Origin: Sandaracinaceae bacterium
Lineage (GTDB): Bacteria; Myxococcota_A; Polyangia; Polyangiales; Sandaracinaceae
Reading direction: 5' to 3'
NCBI GenBank assembly: GCA_019637095.1
Contig: JAHBWG010000021.1
Coordinates: forward strand, 1 to 64,000
DNA length: 64,000 nucleotides
The notes below the pieces were generated by a model. The model made no database searches. It was not told where the DNA came from and saw nothing but the letters and a program-made list of their open reading frames with translations. Both the position numbers and the translations under genes were made by a program. Below, piece by piece: positions 4,880-26,759 of this stretch (position 1 is the first letter of the stretch; each line of letters starts with the position of its first letter).

Positions 4880-7642
4880 TCATCCGCGCCTGCGAAGCGT
4901 GGCGAGCCGGCGACGCGCCTCGTGGGCGGGTGCGGATCGGCCGCGCGCCTCGTGCGCCTCGGCCGTCCACTCGAGGCACGGGCCGACGAGGGCGGCCCAC
5001 GCCCACGCGAACACGCGCGGGGTGACGACCTCCTCGCACGCGGCGACGAGCTCGTCGTGCTCGCCGAGCGCGCGGAGCGCGCTCGCGCGCGCGTGGTGCT
5101 CGAGCACGAGGAACGTTCCGTCCGCGCTCGCGCGGGCGGCGCGTGCCCACGCGTCCGCCGCCGCGCGGGGCTCGCCGGCGCGCTCGGCGGTGATGGCCTC
5201 GGCCGCGGCGCGCACCTCGGGCGCGAGGCTCGCGCGCGCGCTCGCGACCCGAGCGTCGTCCGCGGTCCGCCGGGCCGCGAGGAGCTCCACCATCGCCATG
5301 CGGACGTCGGACGGAACGCTCGCGCGCGCCGCGGCGATGATGTCCGGCAGCGCGTCGGGCTCGGCCTCCGCGAGCTCCAGCGTCAGCAGCCGGAGCCACG
5401 CCGCGCGGCTCGACGGACGCGCGTCGAGCGTGCGGCGCGCGCGGTCGCGGTGCGCGGCGCGCAGCAGGGCGTCCTCGTCGCGGAGCGTCGCGAGCGCGGC
5501 GGCGACGAGCCCTGCGTCCGTCGGGGTCAGCGTGGTGGCGTACTGGTCCGCGACGAGCTCGGCGAGGTCGGGCTGGCCTCGCACGAGCAGCGCGATCGCG
5601 AGCAGGCGGATCGTGGGCGAGGTCGCGGTCTGCGCGTCACCGGCCTCGGTCATGCGCGAGAGCAGCTCGGCGGCGCCCGCATAGTCGCCGCGCGCCATCC
5701 GGGCGCGCGCCGGCATCTGCGGGAGCGAGGTGTGGTCGACCTCCTCGGCGCGCCGGATCGCTCGCGTCGCGAGCGCCTCGTCGCCCGCCGCGCACGCGCG
5801 GTCGAGCACGTGGTCGAGCCCGAGGTCGGAGCCTTCGATGCCGGCGAGGTGCTGCCGGTAGATCTCCATCGCCTCGTCGGCGAGGCCGCTGTGGAAGAGG
5901 GCCTCGAAGAGGCCGTAGTGCAGCTCGCGCGAGCCCTCTCCGAGCGCGTACGCGCGCCGGAACCGCTCGAGCGCGTCCTCGTTGTCGCCGCGCGCGAGCC
6001 GCTCGACGCCCTCGAGGAGCGCGCGCTCCGCGCCGGACGTCAGCCCGGCCCGCGCGCGCTCGGCGTGCCCGGCGACCACGTCGGCGCCCTGCCCGCGCCA
6101 CCACGCGATCATCGTCGCGTGGTAGTGCGCGCGCGGGTCGTCGGGGTCGAGCGCCATCGCGCGCGCCACGTGGTCCTCGGCCTCGGCGAGGGCGTTGCGG
6201 CCGAGCGCGTGCTCGGCGCGGGCGAGCTCGACCGCGAGGCTCGGCGCCTCGGACGGAGCGCCGCTGCGCGCGCTCCCGCGGAGCGACGACGCGACGCCCA
6301 GCGCCATGTCGCGCACCGTCGTCGCGAGCCGGGCGCGCGGCACCGATCGCTCGAAGGTCGCCGTCGGCTCACCCGAGGCGCGGAGCAGCGTGATGCGCAC
6401 GCGCGCGCCCTCACCGTCGGGATCGATCTCGCCGCGCGCGATGTGGGTGGCGCCCAGCGATCGCGCGGCGTGCTGCCAGGGCGGGCTCGGCCCGTGCTCG
6501 TCGCCCGCGTGCTCGGCCAGCCGGTGGGCGCCCAGCGTCTCGATGCCGGCGGCGCGCGTCAGCTCGGTCGCCAGCACGTACGGCAGCGCGGTGCGCGAGA
6601 ACGCGAGGTCGACGTCGGCGGTGCGGTCCTCGAACGGCGGGACCGCGACGAGCGGGGGCGGGTCCGCGGCCGCGACGGGCGCCGCCTCGGGCGCGTCTCG
6701 GGCGAGGAAGGCCGTCGCGAGCAGCGCGAGGAGCAGGGCTGCGCCGAGCGCGGTGACGAGCGCGGTGACGAGCGCGCGCCGCGGCGCGCCGCCGCGAGGC
6801 GTCGCGAGCGCGTCGCGGAACGCGGCGGCGGAGGGCCAGCGGTTCGCGGGATCGATCTCCAGCGCCTTCGCGATGGCGCGCGCGAGGGCGGTGTCGTGGA
6901 GGGCGCCGGCGAGCGCTCGTCGCACCTGGTCGGCGTCGCCCGCCTCGTGCGCGCGCAGCCCGGTCGCGGCGCGGAAGAGCGTCGCGCCGGCCGCGTAGAC
7001 GTCGCTGCGCGCGTCGGCCACGCCGCGGAGCTGCTCGGGCGCCATGTAGCCGAGCGTCCCGAGCACCTCGCCGGTGCTCGTCAGCTCGCTCTCGGGGAGC
7101 CGCGCGATCCCGAAGTCCGCGAGGCGGACCGAGCCGTCGGCGGCGAGGAGCACGTTGGACGGCTTGACGTCGCGGTGCACGATCCTCGCCTCGTGCGCCG
7201 CGTGCAGCGCGTCGAGCATCTCGCGCCCGATCGCGCGGATCCGATCGGGCGGGAGCGGGCCCTGGGCGAGCCGCTCGCCGAGGGATGCGCCGCCGACGAG
7301 CTCCATCACGAGGAAGCAGCCGTCGTCGTCGACCTCGTGCACCTGGACGATGTTCGGGTGCGAGAGCCGCGCCGCCGCCTGGGCCTCCTGGAACAGGCGC
7401 GCGCGCGGTCGGTCGTGAGCATCGAGGAGCACCAGCTTGACGGCGACCTCGCGCCCGAGCCGTCGGTCGTGCGCGGCGACCACCAACCCCATCGCGCCGC
7501 GGCCGAGCACGCGCTCCACGACGAAACGCTCGGGGAGCCGCGCGAGGACCGCCTCGAGCTCGGTCGTGGCGCAGGGCGCGTCGGGCGCGGGCAGGGTCTG
7601 GGTGCTGCTCAGGCCGTCGGGCACGTTGCCCATCCCGTTCAC
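4880..7642 (-). CDS. Ser/Thr protein kinase with membrane segment and TPR tail
   Basis: A 920-residue Hanks-type kinase. The catalytic domain spans about 40-285 and is complete: Gly-rich loop LGRGAMG (46-52), Lys69, HRDVKPSN (156-163), DFG (176-178) and APE. One transmembrane helix lies at about 290-312. A segment near 325-440 (PPLVAVPPFEDRT) resembles the TolB-N/CsgG-like modules that follow kinases in this group. The remainder is alpha-helical TPR-like repeat, a likely partner-binding scaffold. The start may be GTG 7642 or ATG 7633. It is divergent from the FHA/sigma-54 regulator, with only 70 bp between them. FHA domains bind phospho-threonine, so kinase and regulator may work as a pair (inference). 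Confidence 0.9.
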   Translation of the reverse strand: MNGMGNVPDGLSSTQTLPAPDAPCATTELEAVLARLPERFVVERVLGRGAMGLVVAAHDRRLGREVAVKLVLLDAHDRPRARLFQEAQAAARLSHPNIVQVHEVDDDGCFLVMELVGGASLGERLAQGPLPPDRIRAIGREMLDALHAAHEARIVHRDVKPSNVLLAADGSVRLADFGIARLPESELTSTGEVLGTLGYMAPEQLRGVADARSDVYAAGATLFRAATGLRAHEAGDADQVRRALAGALHDTALARAIAKALEIDPANRWPSAAAFRDALATPRGGAPRRALVTALVTALGAALLLALLATAFLARDAPEAAPVAAADPPPLVAVPPFEDRTADVDLAFSRTALPYVLATELTRAAGIETLGAHRLAEHAGDEHGPSPPWQHAARSLGATHIARGEIDPDGEGARVRITLLRASGEPTATFERSVPRARLATTVRDMALGVASSLRGSARSGAPSEAPSLAVELARAEHALGRNALAEAEDHVARAMALDPDDPRAHYHATMIAWWRGQGADVVAGHAERARAGLTSGAERALLEGVERLARGDNEDALERFRRAYALGEGSRELHYGLFEALFHSGLADEAMEIYRQHLAGIEGSDLGLDHVLDRACAAGDEALATRAIRRAEEVDHTSLPQMPARARMARGDYAGAAELLSRMTEAGDAQTATSPTIRLLAIALLVRGQPDLAELVADQYATTLTPTDAGLVAAALATLRDEDALLRAAHRDRARRTLDARPSSRAAWLRLLTLELAEAEPDALPDIIAAARASVPSDVRMAMVELLAARRTADDARVASARASLAPEVRAAAEAITAERAGEPRAAADAWARAARASADGTFLVLEHHARASALRALGEHDELVAACEEVVTPRVFAWAWAALVGPCLEWTAEAHEARGRSAPAHEARRRLATLRRRG

Positions 7643-7712
7643 CGTACGGCCGCGGCGCGTCCCGGCGCAATGGCCCCGCCGTCAGCCAGCGGCCGTAGGC
7701 CGCGCGCGCGGG

Positions 7713-9557
7713 ATGGGGTACGCTCGCCACATCGAGCCTGACGATCTCACCCACGATCGCGCGGCCACGCTCAGCGGAGGCGAGCCGCTCGCGCTCGTCA
7801 TCGAGGCGGGCGGCGACGTGCGCATCGAGCGGCTCGGCGCGGGACGCGCCCTGGTGATCGGGCGCAGCGCGCCGGCCGACGTGGTGATCTCCGATCGCGC
7901 GCTCTCGCGCCAGCACGCGCGCGTCGAGGCGCTCGGGGATCGCGTGCGGTTCGAGGACCTGGGCTCGAAGAACGGGGTCCGCCTGCGCGGCCGCCGCGTG
8001 GAGCGCGCGGAGGTGCACCCGGGGGAGCTCGTCGAGCTCGGCAGCGTGCGCGTGCTCGTCGCGTCGTTCGCGCGCACGGCCGTGTCGGTCGCCGCCCCGT
8101 CGGACGACGGCGCGCTCGAGCGGCTCGAGGAGGATGTGCTGCGCAGCCGGCACTTCGGCCGCCCGCTGTCGATCGCGCTCGTCGAGCTCGGCGGATCGCT
8201 CCGTCGCGACACGCCGGCCTTCGCGCGCGCGCTCTCGCCGATCGATCGCGTCGCCCGCTACACCGCGCGGATGCTGCTCGTGGTCTTCCCCGAGGCGAGC
8301 GCTCTCGAAGCGCGGGCACGCTTGCTGTCCGCGCTGCGCGCGCTGCCGGCCGGCGCCCGCGCCGCGGTGGCGAGCCATCCGGCGTGCGGGGCGGGCGCCG
8401 AGGCGCTGCTCGCGTCGGCGATGAGCGCGCTGCGAGGCGCCTCGGCAGGCGAGGTCGCCCTCGCGCAGGCCGCCGCGCCGGACGCCGACGAGCAGGAGGT
8501 CGTCTCCCCTGGTCTGCGCGCGGTCCGCGAGCTCGCCGACCGCTACGCGCGCTCGCCGCTGCCCGTCCTGCTCCACGGGGAGACCGGCAGCGGCAAGGAG
8601 CTGCTCGCGCGGCGCATCCACGAAGCGAGCGGCCGCGACGGACCGCTCCGCGTGCTCAACTGCGCGGCCATCCCGAGCACGTTGCTCGAGGCGACGCTCT
8701 TCGGGCACGTGCGAGGTGCCTTCACCGGCGCCGACGCGGACCGCCGCGGCGTCTTCGAGGACGCGCAAGGCGGCACCGTGTTCCTCGACGAGATCGGCGA
8801 GCTCGCGCTCGCCGCGCAGGCGGCGCTCCTGCGCGTGCTCGACACCAAGACGCTGACGCCCGTGGGCGGTCACCAGGAGGTCTCGGTCGACGTGCGCATC
8901 GTCGCGGCCACGCACCGCGACCTCGAGGCGATGGTGGAGCGAGGGGAGTTCCGGCTCGATCTCCTCCATCGCCTCAACACCCTCGTGCTCGGCGTGCCGC
9001 CGCTGCGCGATCGACCCGAGGACGTCGTCGCGCTCGCGCACGCGTTCGTGCGCCGCGCCGCGCGCGACCACGGCCGCTCCGTCCCGAGCATCGAGCCGGC
9101 CGCGATGCAGCTCTTGCTGGACTGGCCGTGGCCGGGGAACGTCCGCGAGCTCAAGAACGTGATCGAGCGCGCGGTGCTCCTCGCCCGCGACTCGGTCGGG
9201 ATCGCGGAGCTCCCCGAGCGCATCTGCGCCGCCGTCACGCACCGGCTCGCCGGCGCCCCGGCGCACGACGACGAGCCGGCGCACGACGACGAGCCGGCGC
9301 ACGACGACGAGCCGGCGCACGACGACGAGCCGGGCGCGGCGCCGCCGGACGCGACGAGCGGCGGACCGAGCGCGCAGGGCGAGCTCGATCTGCGCGCGCG
9401 CGTGCGCGCCTACGAGGCGAAGCTCATCCTAGCGGCGCTCGAGCGCACGAACGGAAACCAGGTCGTGGCCGCGCGCCTGCTCGGGCTCCCGCGCCGCACG
9501 CTCGTGCACAAGATCGCGAAGCTCGGCATCCGCCGCGTCTTCGTCACGCGCACCTGA
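7713..9557 (+). CDS. FHA-domain sigma-54-dependent transcriptional activator
   Basis: The 614-residue protein has an FHA domain at about 25-117 (GRSAPADVVISD, LSRQHARVE, GSKNG), a middle region (135-250) like a degenerate GGDEF-type fold, and a sigma-54 AAA+ domain with Walker A GETGSGKE (289-296) and GAFTGA (335-340). An Ala-His-Asp-rich linker of four perfect hexapeptide repeats precedes a Fis-type HTH at the C-terminus (NQVVAARLLGLPRRTL). GAFTGA is the sigma-54 contact loop, so it should activate RpoN promoters. The FHA domain implies control by a phosphothreonine signal, for which the divergent kinase is the obvious candidate. It ends 13 bp from a convergent lipoprotein gene. Confidence 0.93.
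   Translation: MGYARHIEPDDLTHDRAATLSGGEPLALVIEAGGDVRIERLGAGRALVIGRSAPADVVISDRALSRQHARVEALGDRVRFEDLGSKNGVRLRGRRVERAEVHPGELVELGSVRVLVASFARTAVSVAAPSDDGALERLEEDVLRSRHFGRPLSIALVELGGSLRRDTPAFARALSPIDRVARYTARMLLVVFPEASALEARARLLSALRALPAGARAAVASHPACGAGAEALLASAMSALRGASAGEVALAQAAAPDADEQEVVSPGLRAVRELADRYARSPLPVLLHGETGSGKELLARRIHEASGRDGPLRVLNCAAIPSTLLEATLFGHVRGAFTGADADRRGVFEDAQGGTVFLDEIGELALAAQAALLRVLDTKTLTPVGGHQEVSVDVRIVAATHRDLEAMVERGEFRLDLLHRLNTLVLGVPPLRDRPEDVVALAHAFVRRAARDHGRSVPSIEPAAMQLLLDWPWPGNVRELKNVIERAVLLARDSVGIAELPERICAAVTHRLAGAPAHDDEPAHDDEPAHDDEPAHDDEPGAAPPDATSGGPSAQGELDLRARVRAYEAKLILAALERTNGNQVVAARLLGLPRRTLVHKIAKLGIRRVFVTRT
9261..9332 (+). repeat. Four perfect 18-bp tandem repeats inside the FHA/sigma-54 gene
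   Basis: The unit GCGCACGACGACGAGCCG is repeated four times without a mismatch and encodes AHDDEP in each copy. It forms an acidic linker between the AAA+ domain and the DNA-binding HTH. Identity at every base, including third positions, points to recent expansion by slippage. Copy number could vary between strains without breaking the frame. Confidence 0.95.
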
Positions 9558-9570
9558 GGACGCGTCTCGG

Positions 9571-10935
9571 TCAGGGGGTCGCGGACGGGACCCGGTACGC
9601 GACCACGACGGGGGGCACGTCGAACATCCCGACCTGCCCTGCGCCGTAGAGCGTCAAGTACAAGAGGCCTCGGTCCGGCGCGTACGCGCCGCCGCTGATG
9701 TGGTGCTGGCCGTCGCCGTCGAACGGGACCGACCACGGCCCGTACGCGTAGGGCCTCGGCGCCCAGGGCTCCTCGGCCGCCAGGATCTCGTTCAGATCGA
9801 AGAACCAGTAGTAGTTCGAGTGGTCGCGTGCGCCGCGCGCGCAGAAGCCCCCGCAGAGGTTTCCGTCGTCCTGACGGATCTTGTAGCCGATGCCGGTCTC
9901 CGAGCCGCCCAGGCTGCCGAACAGCGCGTAGGTGCGCGTCCCCGGCACCACGAACCCGTACATGGCCGTCGCGAGCCAGTTCCAGAGCGCCGAGGCGCGC
10001 GCGCCCGGCTCGCACACGGTCGTGCCCTCGTCGTCGAGCGCCTCGCACTGGCTCTCGACGGCGCGCGGATCGAGGAAACGCCCGCCCGAGTGGGGGTAGA
10101 CCTGGTGCCGGCGCGTCGGCACGTCGCGCGCCGCGGGCGCGGCGGCGACGAGCGCGGACGGGTCGAAGGTGTAGAGCGAGGGTCCCACGCTGTAGCGCGA
10201 GATGATCGAGTAGTTGGAGGCCCAGCCCACCAGCGCGGGCCCGCCGAGCGGCCCGTGCCACTCCGGGGGCAGCGGCGCCATGAAGCCCGCGGCCAGCGCG
10301 GCGCCCTCGAGGCGGAAGTATCCGTCGATCGTCCCGTCGAGCACGCCGCCTCGGACGATCAGCGTCGTGTCGGCGACCTCGCCGCCGGCGTCGTACCAGA
10401 CGTTCGCGTTGACCACGAGGTCGCCGTCGACCCAGAGCATGCCGGTGATCATGTCGAGCCGCTCCGGGTTGCCGCCCGCGTCGAGGATCGGCTGGAAGCC
10501 CTGGAGCGCGCGGTCCACGACCGGCAGCTCGGAGAGCTCGGTCCCCGTACCGAGCGAGGGCGGGAGCGCGAACTCGGCCACCATCGCGTCGGGGCGGAAC
10601 CCGGCCAGGTAGAACGAGCCGTTGGGGCCGTGGTCGGGGCAGTAGCCCAGCGTCCCGATCGCGAAGTCGGTCGACGAGGCGCCGTGCGTCCCTCCCGCGA
10701 TGCGGAAGGCGCCCGCGTACTCGAAGTCCCCGATCCCCACGAGGCCCTCGGGCGGCGGCCCACCGTCGAGCGCGCCAGCGTCGCGGCCCGCGGCGTCCAT
10801 CGGTGAAGGCCGCGCGTCGGCCGGCGCGGGGCTCGCGTCGGGCGGCGCCGACGCGTCCGGGCCGCTGGAAGGGGCGGTGTCGCACGAGGCCAACGTCGAG
10901 AGCCCGATCGCGGCGAGCAGGGAGGTGATTCTCAT
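9571..10935 (-). CDS. Hypothetical lipoprotein, possibly beta-propeller
   Basis: A 454-residue protein with a lipoprotein signal (MRITSLLAAIGLSTLASC) followed by a Pro/Asp/Ala linker of about 45 residues. An AAGGTGA ribosome-binding sequence lies just upstream of ATG 10935. The mature domain has short repeating beta-type segments (GFQPILDAGGNPERL, YKIRQDDGNLCGGFC, HHISGGAYAPDRGLLYLTL) like those of propeller proteins that record observed values, but no family was identified. It sits between the convergent sigma-54 regulator and the tubulin-like operon on the same strand, 189 bp away. No catalytic motif was seen. Confidence 0.8.
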   Translation of the reverse strand: MRITSLLAAIGLSTLASCDTAPSSGPDASAPPDASPAPADARPSPMDAAGRDAGALDGGPPPEGLVGIGDFEYAGAFRIAGGTHGASSTDFAIGTLGYCPDHGPNGSFYLAGFRPDAMVAEFALPPSLGTGTELSELPVVDRALQGFQPILDAGGNPERLDMITGMLWVDGDLVVNANVWYDAGGEVADTTLIVRGGVLDGTIDGYFRLEGAALAAGFMAPLPPEWHGPLGGPALVGWASNYSIISRYSVGPSLYTFDPSALVAAAPAARDVPTRRHQVYPHSGGRFLDPRAVESQCEALDDEGTTVCEPGARASALWNWLATAMYGFVVPGTRTYALFGSLGGSETGIGYKIRQDDGNLCGGFCARGARDHSNYYWFFDLNEILAAEEPWAPRPYAYGPWSVPFDGDGQHHISGGAYAPDRGLLYLTLYGAGQVGMFDVPPVVVAYRVPSATP

Positions 10936-11042
10936 GGCTCACCTTGCAGCAACTCGGGAGCCACGCCCACGACAGGCGATCGGTGCGGCTGCGCCCGAGC
11001 CGCGCCGGGCGGCGCGCGGCCGAGTGAGCAACGTCTTGCTCT

Positions 11043-11058
11043 GCGCCGGGGCGCAGTC
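11043..11058 (-). terminator. Hairpin downstream of the tubulin-like operon
   Basis: A 6-bp perfect stem (CTGCGC/GCGCAG) with a 4-base loop lies about 67 bp after the stop of the last tubulin-like gene. It is a plausible terminator, but it lacks a U-tract and such hairpins are common at this GC content. Confidence 0.3.
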
Positions 11059-11124
11059 GCCGGGCCGGACCGTTGCCTCGTCCGGCTCGCCGCGCGGCGT
11101 GGAGGTGCAGCCCACACCGGGCGC

Positions 11125-13584
11125 TCACGCGGAGCGAGGGGGGGATCGAGGCTCGCGCGCGGTGAGGGACGCGACGGCGCCCTCGGCGATGTCGCCGATG
11201 GCGACGACGTAGAACGCGCGGTCGGGGTCGAGGCCGCGGTGGACGGGGATGCGCACGCGGCCGCCGGCGCCCTCCTCGGCGAGGAAGCGTCGGGTCGCGT
11301 CGTACGCGCGCGGCGGGGCGATGAGCTCGCCCTCGAGCACGGTCGCGGCGTCGGCGCCGAGATCGTGGCCCGAGACGTTGAGGGCGACCTTGAGCGAGCG
11401 CGCCTGGCGGCGCGCGAACGCGGCGAGCGCCTGCGCGGTGGCCTCGGCGCTCTCGGGCATCGCGAGCGGGTCCCACAGCGCGGCCGGCTCGGCGTGCGTC
11501 CACGCCGCCTCGCGCAGCGCGCCGATGGAGGTGAACGGCGCCTCCTCGCGCCACCGCTCGCGGTAGCGCTGCTCGCGCGCGAGCGCGAAGAGCACGTCGC
11601 GCACGCGGCCGTCGCGCTCCTCGATCGGCAAGAGCGCGTCGAGGAAGCGCGCGGACTCGGGCGGCAGGAGCGACTCGATCAGCGCCTCGTCGCCCGCGCC
11701 GAAGAGCCCGCTCGCGTCGAGCCGTCCGTCCCGCGTCCGCTCGACCCGGACGGTGCGCAGCGACTCGAGCAGCTCGCCGCGCGCGCGCCGCGCGGCGCGG
11801 TCGATCAAGGTGAGCCGCTCGCGGTCGCCGAGGATCGCGGAGCGCACCGCGAGCAGCGCCTCGACCCGCGCGACCTCGCGCGCGAGCCGCAGGCGCGACG
11901 CGAAGTACTCGAGCACCGAGTCGCGCAGGCCGGTCACCGTGTTCTCGAGCGCGTCGAACATCGCGTGGAACGCCGCGGTGAGCGCGAGGTGCGCGCGCCG
12001 GTAGCGAAGGAACAGGTACGTGCCCGCGCCGGCGCTCGCGAAGAGGAGCGCGGTGAGCCACCCGCGCTCGCGCAGCCACGGCGACTGCCAGTCGGCCTCG
12101 CCGACCCCGATCGCGTCGGCGAGCGCGCGCAGGCCGAGCGGCAAGAAGAGCGTGACCAGGGTGACGAAGAGCCCGCCCCAGAGGATCATCCGGCCCAGGT
12201 CGGGCTTGCGGCGCGCGGCGTCCATCATCGCGGCGTGCGCGTCGCGGAACGCCTCGAACGACGGCGGCGGCACGGGCAGCGCCGCGTCGCGGTCGCGGAT
12301 CGCGTCCTCGAGCCGGAGCGAGACGGCGCGCTCCATCCGCTCGACGAGCGCGCCCGCGCGGCGGAACGCGACCGGCGACGGATCGGAGAACAGCGCGTCG
12401 TCCACGCGCCGCGCGATGCTCGCGACCACCGCGTCGCGGTCGGCGACCACCCGCTCGCGCTCCCCCGAGATGAGGTCGTCGAAGCGGCGGCGCTGCAAGA
12501 GCGTCCACGTCTTCTCGATCTCGCGCATGCGCGCGAGCGCCCAGCCGACGGGCGGGTCGGGCGCGGGCTGTCCGTCGTCCACGCTGGGGTCACCCGGGTC
12601 GGGGCCGTAGCGCGCGCGCGTGGTCTCGCTGCGCTCCCACCACGGCGGCTCGACGTCGCGCGCGATCGCGGGCGCGTAGCGGCCGAGCAGCTCGAGCACG
12701 TCGCGATCCGCGTCGCGCGGCGCGTCGAACGCGGCGAGCTCGACCTCCTCGATCGCGTCGATGTCGACGAAGTCCGCCCCGCCGCCCTCGGTCTGGGCGA
12801 TCACCGCGTCGACGACCTCGAGCGCCACCGCGTCCGTCGCGTAGCGCGTGAGCGCGCGGCGCGGGAGCTCGCTCACCGCGCAGACGAACGTGGCCAGCGG
12901 CGAGGCCGGGGCGTTGCCGTAGAGGAGGGGCGCGACGCGGCTCACCGCGCTCAGCGAGTACAGCAAGAGGCACAGGAAGTTGCGGACGCACTGCGTGAGC
13001 TCCGCGTCCCCCAGGACCGAGTACTCCGCGACGTCCTCGATCAAGAAGAGCTGCGGCACCGCGCGCCGGCGCGGGGGCGTCGCCGCGATGCGCTCGCCGA
13101 GCGCCTTCACGGCCGCGATCACGTCGTCGCCGCGCTCGAAGCCGCCCGGGTGCGGCATCGCGCAGAGCGGCAGCACCACGAGGTTGCGCTCCGCGCCCGT
13201 GCGGAACGACTCGAAGATCGGCGACAGCTCGCCGAGCAGGCGCGCCTCGATCGCGGCGAGCGCCGGCGCGAGCAGCGCGCGCGGCTCGCTCTCGCCGAGG
13301 TGCGCGACCACGAACACGTGCAGCCGCGTGAGCCCCTCGGCGCTGCGGCGGTCGCGCGCGCGCACCATGCGCCCGTGCGCGAGCAGGGCCTTGGCGTCCG
13401 CGAGCACGCGCTCGCCGATCGCGTCGGCGCGGGCGCCGCGCTCGAACGTCATCGACGTCAGCGCCGCGTCGTCCGGCGCGCCCCCGAGCGCCTCGGCGCG
13501 CTCGCGGATCACCCGGTCCACCACGCGCGCGCCGAAGCTCCCGAGCCCGACGAGGATCGACGGAACTTCGGGGTCCGTGATCAC
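11125..13584 (-). CDS. Tubulin-like partner protein with membrane segments (degenerate)
   Basis: An 819-residue product starting at GTG 13584, directly adjacent to the TGA of the upstream tubulin-like gene, so the two are almost certainly co-transcribed. Its N-terminus (PSILVGLGSFGARVVDRV) parallels the nucleotide-binding start of its neighbour (TPTLFVGLGGSGGRAIGRI), which suggests a common fold. However, the GGTGSG loop that defines tubulin/FtsZ GTPases was not found. Two hydrophobic helices near residues 464-485 and 505-528 predict membrane insertion. Long Arg/Glu-rich helical regions surround them. The likely role is a membrane-linked, non-hydrolysing partner of the first protein. Function is inference. 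Confidence 0.8.
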   Translation of the reverse strand: MITDPEVPSILVGLGSFGARVVDRVIRERAEALGGAPDDAALTSMTFERGARADAIGERVLADAKALLAHGRMVRARDRRSAEGLTRLHVFVVAHLGESEPRALLAPALAAIEARLLGELSPIFESFRTGAERNLVVLPLCAMPHPGGFERGDDVIAAVKALGERIAATPPRRRAVPQLFLIEDVAEYSVLGDAELTQCVRNFLCLLLYSLSAVSRVAPLLYGNAPASPLATFVCAVSELPRRALTRYATDAVALEVVDAVIAQTEGGGADFVDIDAIEEVELAAFDAPRDADRDVLELLGRYAPAIARDVEPPWWERSETTRARYGPDPGDPSVDDGQPAPDPPVGWALARMREIEKTWTLLQRRRFDDLISGERERVVADRDAVVASIARRVDDALFSDPSPVAFRRAGALVERMERAVSLRLEDAIRDRDAALPVPPPSFEAFRDAHAAMMDAARRKPDLGRMILWGGLFVTLVTLFLPLGLRALADAIGVGEADWQSPWLRERGWLTALLFASAGAGTYLFLRYRRAHLALTAAFHAMFDALENTVTGLRDSVLEYFASRLRLAREVARVEALLAVRSAILGDRERLTLIDRAARRARGELLESLRTVRVERTRDGRLDASGLFGAGDEALIESLLPPESARFLDALLPIEERDGRVRDVLFALAREQRYRERWREEAPFTSIGALREAAWTHAEPAALWDPLAMPESAEATAQALAAFARRQARSLKVALNVSGHDLGADAATVLEGELIAPPRAYDATRRFLAEEGAGGRVRIPVHRGLDPDRAFYVVAIGDIAEGAVASLTAREPRSPPRSA

Positions 13585-16500
13585 TCATCCCTCGAGCAGC
13601 TTCGTCGCCTCGCGCAGGGCCTGGTACTCGGCCTCCTCCGCCGCGTCGCGCGAGCTCATCACCTCGAGCTGCATCGCGCGCTTCTTCCACTCGGCGGCCG
13701 TCGCCGCGATCTCCGCGCTCAGCGCCTTGCTGCCGCCGACCTGCCGCGCGTCGGCGACGAGGGGCGCGACGGACGCGTCGTAGATGCTGGGCTTGTCCTT
13801 CTCGAGCGCGAGCAAGGCGCGGGCGGCGTCGCGCGCCGTGCTCGCGAGCGCGACGCGCGTGCCGAGGTCGGGCAGGTCGAGCGCGAGCGCCGCGCCTTCC
13901 CGCACGATCCGGCCGCGCGCGACGCCGAGCGCGAGCGCGTTGACGCCGAGGCGCGCGCGCTCGCGCTCGGCGGCGAGGGCGCGCTTGGCCTCGTCCGGAT
14001 CGAGGTCGGGCAGCGTCTCCCAGTGCTGGTCGATGTGGAGCGGCCAGCCCTTCTCGGGCTGCGCTTGGAAGCGCCGGTAGGCCTCCTTCATGTCCTCGTT
14101 GAGGTGGCGGAAGCAGTAGAGCGGCACGCCGAGGATCGAGCGGTAGACCACGACGCGATCCGGGTCCTGCCAGCCGTTGACGACGTTGGCGTTCTTGCCG
14201 TGCGTCGCCTCGTCGAGCGCCTCGCTGAAGGGGCCGGTCTGGAGCTGCGCGTGCAGGCCCAAGAGGAGCATGTCCGCGTGGTTGATCATGCCCTTCGTCT
14301 CGACGTCGTGGCGGGTGAGCGGCGCCGCCTTCGCGACGGCCATCCCGATCTTCTGGCGCGCGTAGCGGCGCACGGGATCTTGCTGCCAGAGCGAGGTCGC
14401 GGAGAGCGGCGAGGCGTCGCCGAGCGCCTGGCGCGGCGAGGCGCCGACGCGCTCCGTGGTGAGCCCGTAGTACTTGGCCTCGAGCGCGAGCGCGTCGTCG
14501 AGCCGCAGGCCCTGGCGCTCGAAGGGGTCGTCGCTGGCGGGATCGCCGAGGATCTGCTTGGTGAGGAAGCGCTCGGCGGCGCCGACGAGCGAGCGCTCGA
14601 CGTCCGCGATCATCTCGCGCGCGGTGCGCCGCAGCGGGCGGCCGCCCTCGTCGAACTTCGGGCGCAGCGCCTCGCGCACCGCGAAGAGCACCTCCGTCTG
14701 GTCGCTCGACTCGGGACGCGTCGCGACCTGGTCCTCGTAGTACCAGCTCCAGAAGCGGTCGCGGCCGTTCGGGTGCTGGAGCACCTCGACGTCGAGCGTG
14801 TAGTCGTTGGACTGCGCGTCGGGGCCGCCGTCGTGCTCGAAGCGGCGCGCCTTCTCCTCGAGCTCGGTCGCGAGCCGGCCCGCGCTGCTCTCGATGTTGC
14901 GGAAGCTCCCGCGCAGCGTGTCGCCGGCGCGCCCGATCGCGACGAGGAAGTCGTAGAGCGCCCCCCAGATGAGCAGCCCGCGGCTCTTGTCGACGTACTC
15001 GTTGAAGGTCGCGACGGTGCGCTCGCGCGCCGCGTCGAAGTCCTTGTCCTGCCGCGTGAGCAGCTTGTCCCAGCCGCCGTGCGTGCGCTTGATCTCGGCG
15101 GCGAGGCCGTCCATCTCGCTGCGGAAGCGGCTGTCGCGCCCGAGATCGGCCTCGGCGCGCAGGCGCGCCACGGTCCGCGCGAGCTCGTCGAGCTGATCGC
15201 TCGCGAGCCGCCCGCCGGTCTGCCGCAGCTTCACCAGGACGTAGCGCTGCTCGTACGGGCTCAGCTCGGGCGACGCGTCGGGGCCGGCGCGGCTCATCAG
15301 CTCGGCCCACCAGTCGCCGCTCTCCACCTGTGCGAGCAGCGACGCGAGCCGCGCGTCGATCTGCGCCTTGGCGTCGGCGACCTCGCGCGCGAGCGTGTTC
15401 ATCGTCTGCGCGGGCGTCCACGAGCCGTCGAGGATGCGGTTCGCGCTGATCTCGCGGACCTGCGCGCAGCGCGCGCGCAGGTCGTCCTCGATCGACTTGA
15501 CGGCCTCGTCGAGCCGCAGCGTCGCGGTGTCGCGGACGGTGTGCAGGCGCTTCCACGTGCCGCCCTCGCGATCCTGGTCTGCGAGCATGTCGAGCTTGGC
15601 GACGAACGCGCCGTCGAGCCGCTCGGCGCGCGCCTCGGGGCTGAGCCGCTCGAGCTCCTCGCGGTCGACGGCGAACTGGCGGAAGCGGTCGCGCTGCGAC
15701 TCGCTGACGAGCGAGGGGTCGTCGAGCAGGAGATAGCGGCGCACCGCCGTCGCGGCGAAGCGCCGCGCGCAGTACTCGAGCAGATCCTTGCGCGGCAGGA
15801 GCAGCAGCGAGGCGCCGAGCGTGCCGTAGAACGCGGTGTAGCCTCCGTCGCCGAGCTCCGGCGGGAACACGCGCCGGCTCTCCTTGGTGTAGTTGTCGTA
15901 GTCGGCCTGCTGATCGCCGAGGATCGGGCTGAAGATCTGGAGGTAGGTGGCGTCGGAGAGGGCCTCGCCGACGTCGTCGACCGAGAAGTGCTGCGGACGA
16001 TCGACCACGTACGTCAGGTCGAACGGGCGGCGGCGGACGGTGCGCTTGTGCCGGTTGCGCGGGTCGTAGTGGAAGACGCGCTCGTCGGCGCCGGCGACCT
16101 GCGTGTCGAGCCGCGCGAGGTGCTCGAGCTCCTTGAGCGCGGCGTAGCCGTTCGCGAGCGTTCCGTCGCGGTTCATGCCGACGACCTCCTCGAACGCGTC
16201 CGGCAGGATCGCGAAGCCGAAGACGCGGCTGGACTTGTCGTCGAGCAGATCGCGCAACAGGTACGCGAACGGCAGGAACGCGCCCGAGCCGGTGCCGCCC
16301 GCGATGCTGAAGTAGACGAACACCTGCACCGCGGCGCCGTGGCGGCGCATGCCGTGCTCGTGCGAGCGCAGGTCGCGCAGGAGGTCCGCGATCTGACGCG
16401 GGAGCTCGCCGACCTCGATCGAGCGGAAGAAGCCGAGGCGGCTCTCGACGCGGATCTGCCCGGCGCCGGCGCCGCTCTCCTCGCGGAAGCGGTAGAACGG

Positions 16501-16821
16501 GTGGACCCACTGCGTGAAGTAGTCGTCCGCGTCGGCGAACGTCTCGCCGCGCCGCAGGCGCGAGTACTCCACCTTGTCGAAGTCGCTCAGCGTGATCGTG
16601 GCGTCGACGTGCCCGACCGCGCCGTAGCCCTGCCGCAGGCGGGCGAGGTCGGCGGCGTTCGTGTCGATCGCCACGAAGCGCACGAGGTTCTTGAACCGCA
16701 GCCCGTAGTCCTCGGAGTCGCGCAGGCGCTTGGCGATACGGCCGATGGCCCGGCCCCCCGAGCCCCCCAGCCCGACGAACAGCGTGGGGGTGATCTCTCC
16801 CGGCATGATCTTGATCGGCAT
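13585..16821 (-). CDS. Tubulin/FtsZ-like GTPase (Tubulin_2-type)
   Basis: A 1,078-residue protein. The N-terminal Rossmann-like start carries GLGGSGGRAIGRIAKRL (about 17-33), followed by AIDTNAADLARL, the equivalent of the loop after beta-2. The tubulin signature AGGTGSGAF lies at 174-182. FtsZ is about 350-400 residues, so this is a much longer tubulin-superfamily branch. From about residue 400 the protein is largely helical and charged, possibly coiled-coil. It is the first gene of a two-gene unit. Large tubulin-like proteins of this type have been proposed to remodel membranes together with VWA-domain proteins. Polymerisation and GTP use here are predicted only. It is divergent from ppk1, with 54 bp between them. 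Confidence 0.88.
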   Translation of the reverse strand: MPIKIMPGEITPTLFVGLGGSGGRAIGRIAKRLRDSEDYGLRFKNLVRFVAIDTNAADLARLRQGYGAVGHVDATITLSDFDKVEYSRLRRGETFADADDYFTQWVHPFYRFREESGAGAGQIRVESRLGFFRSIEVGELPRQIADLLRDLRSHEHGMRRHGAAVQVFVYFSIAGGTGSGAFLPFAYLLRDLLDDKSSRVFGFAILPDAFEEVVGMNRDGTLANGYAALKELEHLARLDTQVAGADERVFHYDPRNRHKRTVRRRPFDLTYVVDRPQHFSVDDVGEALSDATYLQIFSPILGDQQADYDNYTKESRRVFPPELGDGGYTAFYGTLGASLLLLPRKDLLEYCARRFAATAVRRYLLLDDPSLVSESQRDRFRQFAVDREELERLSPEARAERLDGAFVAKLDMLADQDREGGTWKRLHTVRDTATLRLDEAVKSIEDDLRARCAQVREISANRILDGSWTPAQTMNTLAREVADAKAQIDARLASLLAQVESGDWWAELMSRAGPDASPELSPYEQRYVLVKLRQTGGRLASDQLDELARTVARLRAEADLGRDSRFRSEMDGLAAEIKRTHGGWDKLLTRQDKDFDAARERTVATFNEYVDKSRGLLIWGALYDFLVAIGRAGDTLRGSFRNIESSAGRLATELEEKARRFEHDGGPDAQSNDYTLDVEVLQHPNGRDRFWSWYYEDQVATRPESSDQTEVLFAVREALRPKFDEGGRPLRRTAREMIADVERSLVGAAERFLTKQILGDPASDDPFERQGLRLDDALALEAKYYGLTTERVGASPRQALGDASPLSATSLWQQDPVRRYARQKIGMAVAKAAPLTRHDVETKGMINHADMLLLGLHAQLQTGPFSEALDEATHGKNANVVNGWQDPDRVVVYRSILGVPLYCFRHLNEDMKEAYRRFQAQPEKGWPLHIDQHWETLPDLDPDEAKRALAAERERARLGVNALALGVARGRIVREGAALALDLPDLGTRVALASTARDAARALLALEKDKPSIYDASVAPLVADARQVGGSKALSAEIAATAAEWKKRAMQLEVMSSRDAAEEAEYQALREATKLLEG

Positions 16822-16875
16822 GTCGGGCGAAGCGTAGCAGTGGAGCCCGAGCCCGGGATCTCGTAAGTTCGCAGC

Positions 16876-19047
16876 ATGACCGAGCTATCGAGCAGCCAGG
16901 AGCGCGCCTCGATCCCTCACCCGGCCCCGCCGCCGGAGGCCCTCGATCCGGACGCTCCGGAGCTGCTCTTGAACCGCGAGCTGACCTGGCTCGCGTTCAA
17001 CCGCCGCGTGCTCGCGGAGGCCGAGGACCCGAGCAACCGGCTGCTCGAGCGCGTGAAGTTCCTCGCGATCGCGAACGGGACGCTCGACGAGTTCGTGATG
17101 AAGCGGATCGGCGGCCTCAAGCAGCAGATCGCGGCGGGCGTGACCGAGCGCACCGTCGACGGTCGGACGCCGCGCGAGCAGCTCGCCGAGTGCTACGCGG
17201 TGATGCGCGGGCTCGGTGATCGATCGCAAGAGCTCTTGCGCGAGCTGCGGCGGGAGCTCGCCGCCGAGGGGATCGTCCTGGCGAGCTGGCGCGATCTCTC
17301 GCCCGAGGACCAGCAGACGCTCCGCGCGCACTACCTCGAGAACGTGTTCCCGCTCGTGACACCGCAGGCGATGGACCCGGCGCACCCGTTCCCGTTCGTC
17401 TCGAACCTCTCGCTGAACCTGTTCGTCACGCTGCGGCGCGCGGAGGACGATCCGGAGCGGCTGCGCGCGCGGGTGAAGGTGCCGGTCGGCCGCGGCGTCC
17501 CGCGCTTCCTGTCGGTGGGCGCGACGTACGTCCCGCTCGAGGACGTGATGGCGAACAACCTCGACCTGCTCTTCCCCGAGATGCTCGTCGACCAGGTCGA
17601 GATGTTCCGCGTGACGCGCAACTCGAACACCGAGCGCGACGAGGAGCAGGCGGACGATCTGCTCGCCCTCATCGAGACGGAGCTCAAGGAGCGCAAGTTC
17701 GCTTCCATCGTGCGGATGACCGTCGCGGCCGGGATGACGCCGCTGACGCGCGGCTACCTCGCGGCGGAGCTCGGCCTGCACGAGGAGGACGACGTCTTCG
17801 AGATGCCGGGGATGCTCGGCCTCGCCGACCTGATGGAGCTCGTGCGCGCGGACCGGCCGGACCTGCGCGACGAGCCCCACCACCCGGCGGACTTCCCCGA
17901 GTTCACCACCGAGCGGAACATCTTCCACGTCATCCGCGAGCGCGGCTCCGTGCTCGTCCACCACCCCTACCAGTCGTTCGCGACGAGCGTCGAGCGCTTC
18001 CTCGAGGAGGCGGCCAACGACCCGAAGGTGCGCGCGATCAAGGCGACCATCTACCGCACGGGGGAGGAGTCCAAGGTCGTCCAGCACCTCGAGACCGCGG
18101 CGCGCAACGGCAAGCAGGTCGCGGTGGTCGTCGAGCTGAAGGCGCGCTTCGACGAGCAGGCGAACATCAAGTGGGCCAACCGGCTCGAGTCGGTAGGCAT
18201 CCACGTCACGTACGGGGTCGTCGGGCTCAAGACGCACTGCAAGGTGATCCTCGTGGTGCGGCAGGACTACGGCGGCCTGCGCCGCTACGCGCACATCGGC
18301 ACGGGCAACTACCACTCCGGCACGGCGCGGCTCTACACGGACCTCGGCTTGTTCACGTGCGACCCGGGCATCGGCCACGACCTGACCGAGCTCTTCAACT
18401 ACCTCACCACGGGCTACACGCCGGGGCGGCGCTACCAGAAGCTCCTGCCGGCGCCGAAGGTGCTCAAGCGGGCCATCCTCGCGCGCATCGCGCGCGAGGC
18501 GGAGCACGTCGCGCGCGGCGAGCGCGGGCTCATCCGCATGAAGATGAACGCGCTCGAGGACGCCGACGTGACGCGCGCGCTCTACCGCGCGGCGCAGCGC
18601 GGGGTGCGCATCGAGCTGATCGTGCGCGACACCTGCCGGCTCCGCCCCGGCATCCCCGGGCTGAGCGAGAACATCCGCGTCATCAGCATCGTGGGCCGGT
18701 TCCTCGAGCACATGCGCATCTACTACTTCCACAACGCAGGCGAGGAGGAGTACTACCTCGGCTCCGCGGACCTGATGCAGCGCAACCTCGAGAGCCGCAT
18801 CGAGACGGTGGCGCCGGTCGACGATCCGGCGCTGCGAGAGGAGCTGCGCTTCATCCTCGACACGCAGCTCTCCGATCAGAAGAGCGCGTGGGAGATGCTC
18901 TCGGACGGCACGCACGTCCAGGGCAACGGCGAAGGCAAGAGCTCGCACGAGGTGTTCGCCAAGCGCGCCGAGGCGCAGCTGCGCGCGGCGACGGGGCTCC
19001 AGGCGCGCAAGACCAAGACCGTCGCGGCGCGCAACTGGCGCCGCTGA
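16876..19047 (+). CDS. ppk1: Polyphosphate kinase 1
   Basis: A 723-residue PPK1 of full length. It makes long-chain polyphosphate from ATP reversibly. The N-terminal domain carries LLNRELTWLAFNRRVLAEAE, a PPK1 signature. The C-terminal catalytic half has the conserved KTHCK with the phosphorylated histidine, IGTGNYH, and the arginine-rich region near the second active-site histidine. Polyphosphate in myxobacteria is linked to starvation and development. The gene is divergent from the tubulin-like operon. A small hypothetical gene follows 75 bp downstream on the same strand. Confidence 0.97.
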   Translation: MTELSSSQERASIPHPAPPPEALDPDAPELLLNRELTWLAFNRRVLAEAEDPSNRLLERVKFLAIANGTLDEFVMKRIGGLKQQIAAGVTERTVDGRTPREQLAECYAVMRGLGDRSQELLRELRRELAAEGIVLASWRDLSPEDQQTLRAHYLENVFPLVTPQAMDPAHPFPFVSNLSLNLFVTLRRAEDDPERLRARVKVPVGRGVPRFLSVGATYVPLEDVMANNLDLLFPEMLVDQVEMFRVTRNSNTERDEEQADDLLALIETELKERKFASIVRMTVAAGMTPLTRGYLAAELGLHEEDDVFEMPGMLGLADLMELVRADRPDLRDEPHHPADFPEFTTERNIFHVIRERGSVLVHHPYQSFATSVERFLEEAANDPKVRAIKATIYRTGEESKVVQHLETAARNGKQVAVVVELKARFDEQANIKWANRLESVGIHVTYGVVGLKTHCKVILVVRQDYGGLRRYAHIGTGNYHSGTARLYTDLGLFTCDPGIGHDLTELFNYLTTGYTPGRRYQKLLPAPKVLKRAILARIAREAEHVARGERGLIRMKMNALEDADVTRALYRAAQRGVRIELIVRDTCRLRPGIPGLSENIRVISIVGRFLEHMRIYYFHNAGEEEYYLGSADLMQRNLESRIETVAPVDDPALREELRFILDTQLSDQKSAWEMLSDGTHVQGNGEGKSSHEVFAKRAEAQLRAATGLQARKTKTVAARNWRR

Positions 19048-26030: not shown

Positions 26031-26458
26031 GTGGGGCGCGCCGACTTCGACGGGACGAGCCGCTTCGAGCTCCGCCGGCGGCTCGGCGAGGGCGGGATGG
26101 GCGTGGTCTACGAGGCCTACGACGCCGAGCGCCGGCAGCTCGTGGCGCTCAAGACGCTCCAGCGCGCGGACGCGCGCTCGCTCTTGCGCTTCAAGAACGA
26201 GTTCCGCGCCCTGCACGACATCGAGCACCCGAACCTCGTGAGCCTCTACGAGCTGTTCGAGCACGAGGGGGCGTGGTTCTTCACGATGGAGCTGGTCGAG
26301 GGGGTCGACTTCCTGACGCACGTGCGCGGCCACGAGCCGCGCGCCGGGCTCGACGAGGCGAAGCTGCGTGCGGCGATGGGCGAGCTCGCGCGCGGCGTCG
26401 TCGCGCTGCACCGCGCAGACCGGGTCCATCGCGACATCAAGCCGTCGAACCTCCGGGG
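26031..26458 (+). pseudogene. Truncated Ser/Thr kinase gene (N-terminal part only)
   Basis: GTG 26031 follows a GGGAGG sequence. The product begins as an ordinary Hanks kinase: [12 protein letters not shown] glycine loop, ALKTL with the ATP-binding Lys, a hinge MELVEG and the catalytic-loop start HRDIKPSNL. Similarity ends there. The DFG motif, activation loop and C-lobe are missing, and the same frame runs without a stop into the antitoxin gene at 26514. The N-lobe resembles the large multidomain kinases of myxobacteria (kinase plus AAA/TPR). No remainder of the kinase was found downstream. Catalytically it should be dead. Confidence 0.85.
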
Positions 26459-26498
26459 TGACGCGCGCGGGGCGCGGTCGCCTCGATGGTGTCGAATG

Positions 26499-26513
26499 GG
26501 TATCGTTCGTACC
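26499..26513 (+). promoter_or_regulatory. Partial palindrome at the vapB start, possible autoregulatory operator
   Basis: GGTATCGTTCGTACC sits directly in front of the vapB ATG and has 4-bp arms (GGTA/TACC) around a 7-base centre. VapB antitoxins usually repress their own promoter at palindromes near the start codon. Location and symmetry fit, but the arms are short. Confidence 0.3.
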
Positions 26514-26759
26514 ATGAAGACTGCCATCGATGGCGCTGGCCGCGTGGTCGTGCCCAAGGCGATGCGCGACGCGCTCGGTCTCGGCGCGGGCCAGAGCGTC
26601 GACATCCGGCTCGTCGATGGACGCCTGGAGATCGAGCCCAGCGCGACGCCCATGAAGCTCGTGCGGCGGGGGAAGCGACTCGCGGCCGAGCCCGATCGCG
26701 AGCTGCCGACCTCGACCGCCGCCGACGTGCGCAGCGCGCTCGAGGGGGTCCGCCGGTGA
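26514..26759 (+). CDS. vapB: AbrB/VapB-type antitoxin
   Basis: An 81-residue protein with a swapped-hairpin AbrB DNA-binding domain at its start ([20 protein letters not shown], then [13 protein letters not shown]). The remainder is a flexible charged tail, as in VapB antitoxins that plug the PIN toxin. The stop overlaps the next start (GTGA at 26756-26759), the usual arrangement of a vapBC pair. The reading frame is also continuous with the upstream kinase fragment, so a kinase-VapB fusion could be made from the kinase start. The pair is probably an acquired module. Confidence 0.85.

Follow-up and report, generated by a model that had tools for sequence, protein, structure and literature searches.

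A Tubulin_2 GTPase and a predicted membrane-anchored pseudo-tubulin in a conserved four-gene unit of Myxococcota

In systems such as BtubA/B, alpha/beta and gamma tubulin, and FtsZ with FtsA or ZipA, a GTPase subunit has a partner, either a relative or a tether, which by itself does not drive turnover. Bacterial tubulin-like proteins of the FtsZ-like-1 (FtsZl1) family, defined by Makarova and Koonin in 2010 (PMC2875224), are known from vWA/FtsZl1 operons, and tubulin and vWA genes are also found inside the DO-GTPase/GAP1-N2 conflict systems (Kaur et al. 2020, PMC7159879), the Firmicutes versions of which have two tubulin genes with coiled coils that were not described as a catalytic/degenerate pair. 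Here we describe a related locus on contig JAHBWG010000021.1 of a Sandaracinaceae bacterium (assembly GCA_019637095.1), positions 1 to 64,000 of which are referred to below as the window. It contains two abutting genes, for a Tubulin_2 GTPase (P0002) and for a protein that we call a pseudo-tubulin (P0003), which in relatives are part of a unit with a gene for a VWA protein and one for a membrane-anchored, degenerate helicase. The unit is a variant of the known vWA/FtsZl1 operons. With the GAP1-N2/DO-GTPase systems it shares the joint presence of tubulin and vWA and of membrane components, but it is not the published DO-GTPase conflict system, since DO-GTPase2 (PF19993) was found in none of ten carrier genomes, while the C. 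glutamicum control was positive; Pfam scans of the cassette proteins and some of their neighbours likewise revealed no GAP1 domain.

Both genes are on the minus strand, with the TGA stop codon of P0002 (13585-16821, 1078 aa, ATG start) abutting the GTG start codon of P0003 (11125-13584, 819 aa). An earlier note, made from the letters of the window, had described the first protein as an intact GTPase, and P0002 indeed carries AGGTGSGAF at residues 174-182, with the T4 loop AGGTGSG (174-180) being invariant among 15 aligned P0002-type orthologues. Its score against Pfam Tubulin_2 (PF13809) is 185.4 bits (curated cut-off 27, E = 2.4e-54), yet it remains below the cut-off for the general Tubulin/FtsZ model PF00091 (28.5 bits vs 33), which identifies it as a member of FtsZl1. 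The nucleotide domain of its AlphaFold2 model resembles FtsZ1/CetZ (Z 18.4, root-mean-square deviation [rmsd] 2.9, 181 residues aligned), and full-length proteins of this type, taken to be soluble, display no strong hydrophobic stretch in hydropathy plots. P0002 is the sole Tubulin_2 protein of its genome and is not the canonical division FtsZ, as genuine FtsZ-type genes sit elsewhere, on two other contigs. The same genome yields two strong FtsZ-type matches, in open reading frames (ORFs) of 482 and 389 aa, and a third, partial Tubulin match in a 539-aa ORF (E = 2e-12), which may represent paralogues or contamination.

P0003 retains the N-terminal VGLGxxG motif that it has in common with P0002, but the GG.G[ST]G pattern is absent anywhere in its sequence, as it is from all 22 P0003-type proteins (0/22), in which the corresponding position after strand S4 reads A/G-x-L-G-E or similar. 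Two hydrophobic helices are found at about residues 463-492 and 508-527, and in nearly all P0003-type proteins the corresponding region (~460-530 in P0003) contains one or two strongly hydrophobic segments; these and all other transmembrane (TM) assignments given here are based on hydropathy rather than on a trained predictor. Neither Pfam (up to E = 1) nor NCBIfam yielded a match to P0003, plain BLAST between P0002 and P0003 aligned only a 21-residue stretch at T1, and phmmer searches of PDB returned nothing relevant for either protein. Profile comparison was more informative. When alignments of 15 P0003-type and 15 P0002-type sequences were compared with hhalign, the S6-H7 region matched with E = 1.1e-6 (5.2e-5 and 2.2e-5 with other choices of columns), and the T1 motif with E = 4.6e-4 when the N-terminal parts were compared alone, as opposed to 0.12 for the best of 20 column-shuffled controls and 0.28 for a reversed template. 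The T1 and S6-H7 regions are collinear between the two types, and in both P0002 and P0003 the strands and helices near T1, S4, S5 and S6 follow one another in the same order, in agreement with the related N-termini proposed in the earlier note. The C-terminal parts gave no significant profile match (E = 0.12), so that the case for a C-terminal tubulin domain in P0003 comes from the structural model by itself.

The AlphaFold2 model of P0003, built from a 12-sequence input, has a mean predicted local distance difference test score of 80.2 and a predicted template modelling score of 0.63. When compared with PDB by VIA-align, its best 50 rows all belong to the tubulin superfamily (tubulin, BtubA/B, TubZ, CetZ and FtsZ), with 243-297 residues aligned; the best row is BtubB (Z 16.9, rmsd 4.3, 280/410 aligned), and archaeal FtsZ 1w59 gives Z 16.5, rmsd 3.8 and 243 aligned residues. 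Since the aligned range spans residues 6 to 816, the model suggests a tubulin fold which is completed by the C-terminal part and into which the helical stretch bearing the hairpin is inserted. Plain Foldseek, in which the long helices of the full-length model prevail, gave a less clear picture: its top matches were coiled-coil proteins (dynein, alpha-pore-forming toxins, a dynamin-like protein), which we read as matches to the helical insert and discounted, since the rows ranked by VIA-align are all tubulins and rmsd exceeds 30 in most of the coiled-coil rows. On this basis, P0003 is predicted to be a tubulin-fold protein which lacks the phosphate loop and is anchored in the membrane, as the earlier note had supposed for the second gene of the pair.

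The pairing extends well beyond the window. Of 97 related genomes, the same 13 contain an orthologue of P0003 and a full-length orthologue of P0002, and in all 13 the two genes are adjacent and on the same strand. In a broader sample of 284 Myxococcota genomes, a P0003-type match at E<=1e-5 was found in 28, all but one of which (27/28) also have a Tubulin_2 protein, and in 25 of the 28 the two are located on one contig and strand, a few kb apart. Overall, 66 of the 284 genomes contain Tubulin_2 above the family cut-off; because the other Tubulin_2 genes of the phylum are without a recognizable pseudo-tubulin partner, the pair constitutes one branch of FtsZl1. A contig scan with P0003 alone identified no relatives, and one with an alignment as the query identified 11 loci.

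Gene calling and searches with hidden Markov models (HMMs) revealed that relatives in Polyangiales and other Myxococcota have a fixed order of VWA, Tubulin_2, pseudo-tubulin and membrane helicase genes. The VWA gene adjoins the tubulin gene in genomes of families f4, f12, f16 and f27, and the ORFs of the pseudo-tubulin and the helicase may overlap by 4 bp, as in loci L044 and L051. Rather than a gene pair on its own, the unit looks like a machine of four parts, and we consider its architecture, comprising the fold, the loss of the loop, the pairing and the four genes, to be established with very high probability. In the window, all four genes are on the minus strand and keep the relatives' order, but are dispersed over 30 kb.

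The VWA gene (27291-29735, 814 aa) is 10.5 kb away from the tubulin gene, and the earlier note had named it as a possible but distant partner. The partnership held, while the reservation did not: its product is 53-57% identical to the tubulin-adjacent VWA proteins of relatives, and, because its orthologues adjoin the tubulin gene there, we regard it as the true partner. It matches Pfam VWA_2 with E = 1.3e-5, just short of the cut-off, and contains DDSGS, which resembles a metal-ion-dependent adhesion site (MIDAS). Hydropathy indicates a signal peptide, a periplasmic VWA domain with a beta-rich region, a single TM helix at 669-687 and a cytoplasmic tail of ~125 residues, and the protein is, with its signal peptide, TM helix and MIDAS, of the kind described for vWA/FtsZl1 operons (PMC2875224). 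In two family f4 genomes, a second VWA-type gene follows the helicase gene (L044 17112-18533, L041 17558-19081); judging from gene content, some units may have two VWA proteins.

The fourth gene was missed in the earlier note, whose core reading of the locus, as a tubulin with an intact loop and a degenerate, membrane-bound partner, conserved as a pair and linked to a VWA protein, withstood both refutation tests that the note had proposed, namely predicted structure and pairing in other genomes. At 1-2085, the window contains the N-terminal 695 codons of an ORF which is terminated not by mutation but by the end of the contig, as the window starts at contig base 1; its product is 67-69% identical to the proteins that relatives encode downstream of the pair. 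Full-length proteins from relatives have the DEAD and MZB domains of superfamily 2 (SF2) helicases similar to YprA/MrfA (PMC12458937), the MZB match having E = 1.2e-7 and 2.9e-9 in family f12 relatives and falling under the cut-off, at 0.014, in the clade of the window. They differ from YprA/MrfA in that several TM helices are present at the N-terminus, as judged from hydropathy, and in that most members have an arginine for the Walker A lysine (GSGR) and DDxD/E for DExH in motif II; in the window these motifs read GSGRTT and DDVD, while the lysine is retained at loci L050, L143, L144 and L145. Other DISARM/ARMADA genes are not found alongside the fourth protein, and the text of PMC12458937 mentions neither tubulin nor vWA. 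The main text of PMC2875224 has no tubulin-fold partner with a membrane hairpin and without the loop, and no helicase, a word it does not use. In openly readable papers, excluding the 2010 supplementary lists, neither a tubulin partner that is inserted in the membrane and lacks the loop nor a helicase as a fixed component was found to be described. What sets the partner here apart from those in alpha/beta and gamma tubulin, BtubA/B and FtsZ-FtsA/ZipA is a predicted tubulin fold that itself bears a membrane hairpin, within a helical insert, and has no phosphate loop.

Pairwise distances of the tubulin, the pseudo-tubulin and the helicase correlate with each other at r 0.97, a value which owes partly to two deep subtypes, as opposed to r 0.74 between the tubulin and RpoB. 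Family f16 is 68% identical to the window's genome in RpoB and 59% in the tubulin, and for family f12 the respective values are 76% and 28%. These comparisons are consistent with joint inheritance of the unit, in two ancient subtypes, together with a degree of transfer or differential loss. Outside Myxococcota, a plasmid of Azospirillum ramasamyi (8872-18756) encodes a Tubulin_2 protein, a 710-aa protein with a TM hairpin in its middle, and a 1118-aa protein with N-terminal TM helices and weak helicase likeness (E = 0.044), which resemble the Myxococcota unit in layout but hardly at all in sequence. Megaplasmids of Meiothermus and Thermus carry genes for VWA, Tubulin_2, a protein of 679 or 677 aa without TM helices, and BrxL, and the Meiothermus tubulin operon adjoins DUF1156 and DUF499/Swt1-HEPN genes, which form a defence-like neighbourhood. 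HMM comparisons did not show the middle proteins of Meiothermus, Thermus and Azospirillum to be homologous to P0003, and the similarity is in the layout alone.

How might such a unit operate? Tubulin_2 would be the only subunit competent for GTP, and the pseudo-tubulin, held in the inner membrane by the hairpin within its helical insert, could serve as a membrane-bound template, cap or tether onto which GTP-loaded Tubulin_2 subunits add, in analogy to gamma-tubulin or to the membrane tethers of FtsZ. The VWA protein would sense or grip a periplasmic partner and signal through its single TM helix to the cytoplasmic tail, and the helicase-like protein, membrane-held and with degraded ATPase motifs, would most likely bind nucleic acid rather than unwind it. 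The outcome would be a GTP-switched polymer or complex linking the envelope to DNA or other cytoplasmic cargo. We give this template or tether model about an even chance of being right, and several points weigh against it. The model of P0002 is poor over much of its length past residue 270; FtsZl1 may not polymerise at all, as T6-H7 could not be identified by the 2010 authors (PMC2875224); and nucleic acid binding by the helicase-like protein is deduced from its fold alone. The two Deinococcota plasmids have a downstream neighbour devoid of TM helices and BrxL in the fourth slot, and the contribution of the two deep subtypes takes some of the force from the tree correlation. The four genes are also interrupted by others in the window's genome and in at least one relative, so that their co-transcription is not required. 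The mechanism as a whole is a computational proposal.

As the fourth component is a membrane-anchored, degenerate SF2 helicase, a reading purely in terms of membrane remodelling is weakened, and readings in terms of DNA tethering or immunity are opened. In an anti-phage or anti-plasmid system, VWA, tubulin and pseudo-tubulin would act as a GTP-switched membrane sensor, the helicase-like protein or BrxL as a DNA-recognising arm, and the inactive enzymes as decoys or scaffolds. DISARM, Dpd, Druantia and ARMADA are built around YprA-like helicases (PMC12458937), tubulin and vWA genes have been proposed as conflict systems in which inactive enzymes are a recurring theme (PMC7159879), and the position of BrxL after the tubulin operon on the Meiothermus and Thermus plasmids, with the DUF1156 and DUF499/Swt1-HEPN genes alongside in Meiothermus, points in the same direction, as does the patchy distribution among the relatives (13/97). 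Moreover, the unit of genome G280, from a different family, is closer to that of the window than RpoB predicts, suggesting transfer. However, matches to PADLOC models were weak and partial, with E no better than 0.0014, a conserved nuclease, methylase or toxin does not accompany the four genes in Myxococcota, and in the window they are surrounded by genes for housekeeping or signalling, leaving an immune role possible but, in our estimation, doubtful. A role in remodelling membranes or forming vesicles, which was proposed for FtsZl1 operons in 2010, with a pseudo-tubulin-recruited tubulin polymer bending or cutting the inner membrane, would agree with the vWA/FtsZl1 operon type (PMC2875224) and with three of the four proteins being membrane proteins, the pseudo-tubulin supplying the missing link between cytoplasmic tubulin and periplasmic VWA; we nevertheless consider it improbable, as no conserved GTPase or OmpA partner is present here and a nucleic-acid-type helicase fold is not needed for such a process. 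That P0003 is no tubulin relative at all, with no more than a generic Rossmann glycine motif at the common N-terminus and the two genes forming a mere operon, would accord with its failure in Pfam, the restriction of BLAST to T1 and the coiled-coil proteins leading plain Foldseek, but is very improbable in view of the exclusively tubulin-superfamily rows in the VIA-align top 50 and the S6-H7 profile match collinear with T1.

The genes which come between the four in the window include those for a Ser/Thr kinase, an FHA/sigma-54 regulator, a lipoprotein-like protein, PPK1, an esterase and others. The kinase (4880-7642, minus strand; Pfam Pkinase E = 2.6e-40), which has tetratricopeptide repeats, is encoded between the pseudo-tubulin and helicase genes; kinases are common in FtsZl1 operons (PMC2875224), but this one is not a conserved component of those compared here. 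The regulator (7437-9557, plus strand), also between cassette genes, is a fusion of an FHA domain, a sigma-54 activator and a Fis-type helix-turn-helix domain, typical of myxobacteria. A 242-aa ORF at 26031-26759 on the plus strand codes for a truncated protein-kinase domain followed, in an unusual fusion, by a MazE/AbrB-type antitoxin domain at the C-terminus.

The 2010 account of vWA/FtsZl1 operons (PMC2875224) left two questions, namely how the cytoplasmic tubulin and the periplasmic VWA protein are linked, and whether filaments are formed, and its reviewer 1 asked how two such proteins could act together. The predicted topologies of the VWA protein and of the pseudo-tubulin would let cytoplasmic and periplasmic parts reach one another and thereby answer this objection: a conserved, membrane-anchored pseudo-tubulin offers a concrete solution to the question of the link, and a candidate nucleation partner for that of the filament. 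Tentatively, and at less than even chances, we envisage a phylum-wide cytoskeletal or immune machine, in which a dead membrane tubulin would template a live one, a dead membrane helicase would tie the assembly to DNA, and a periplasmic VWA sensor would control it; if true, such a machine would be a direct linkage from envelope to DNA built on tubulin. The degenerate helicase, in the place of which Deinococcota have BrxL, suggests that these systems are directed at DNA, and could decide between the membrane-remodelling and conflict-system proposals.

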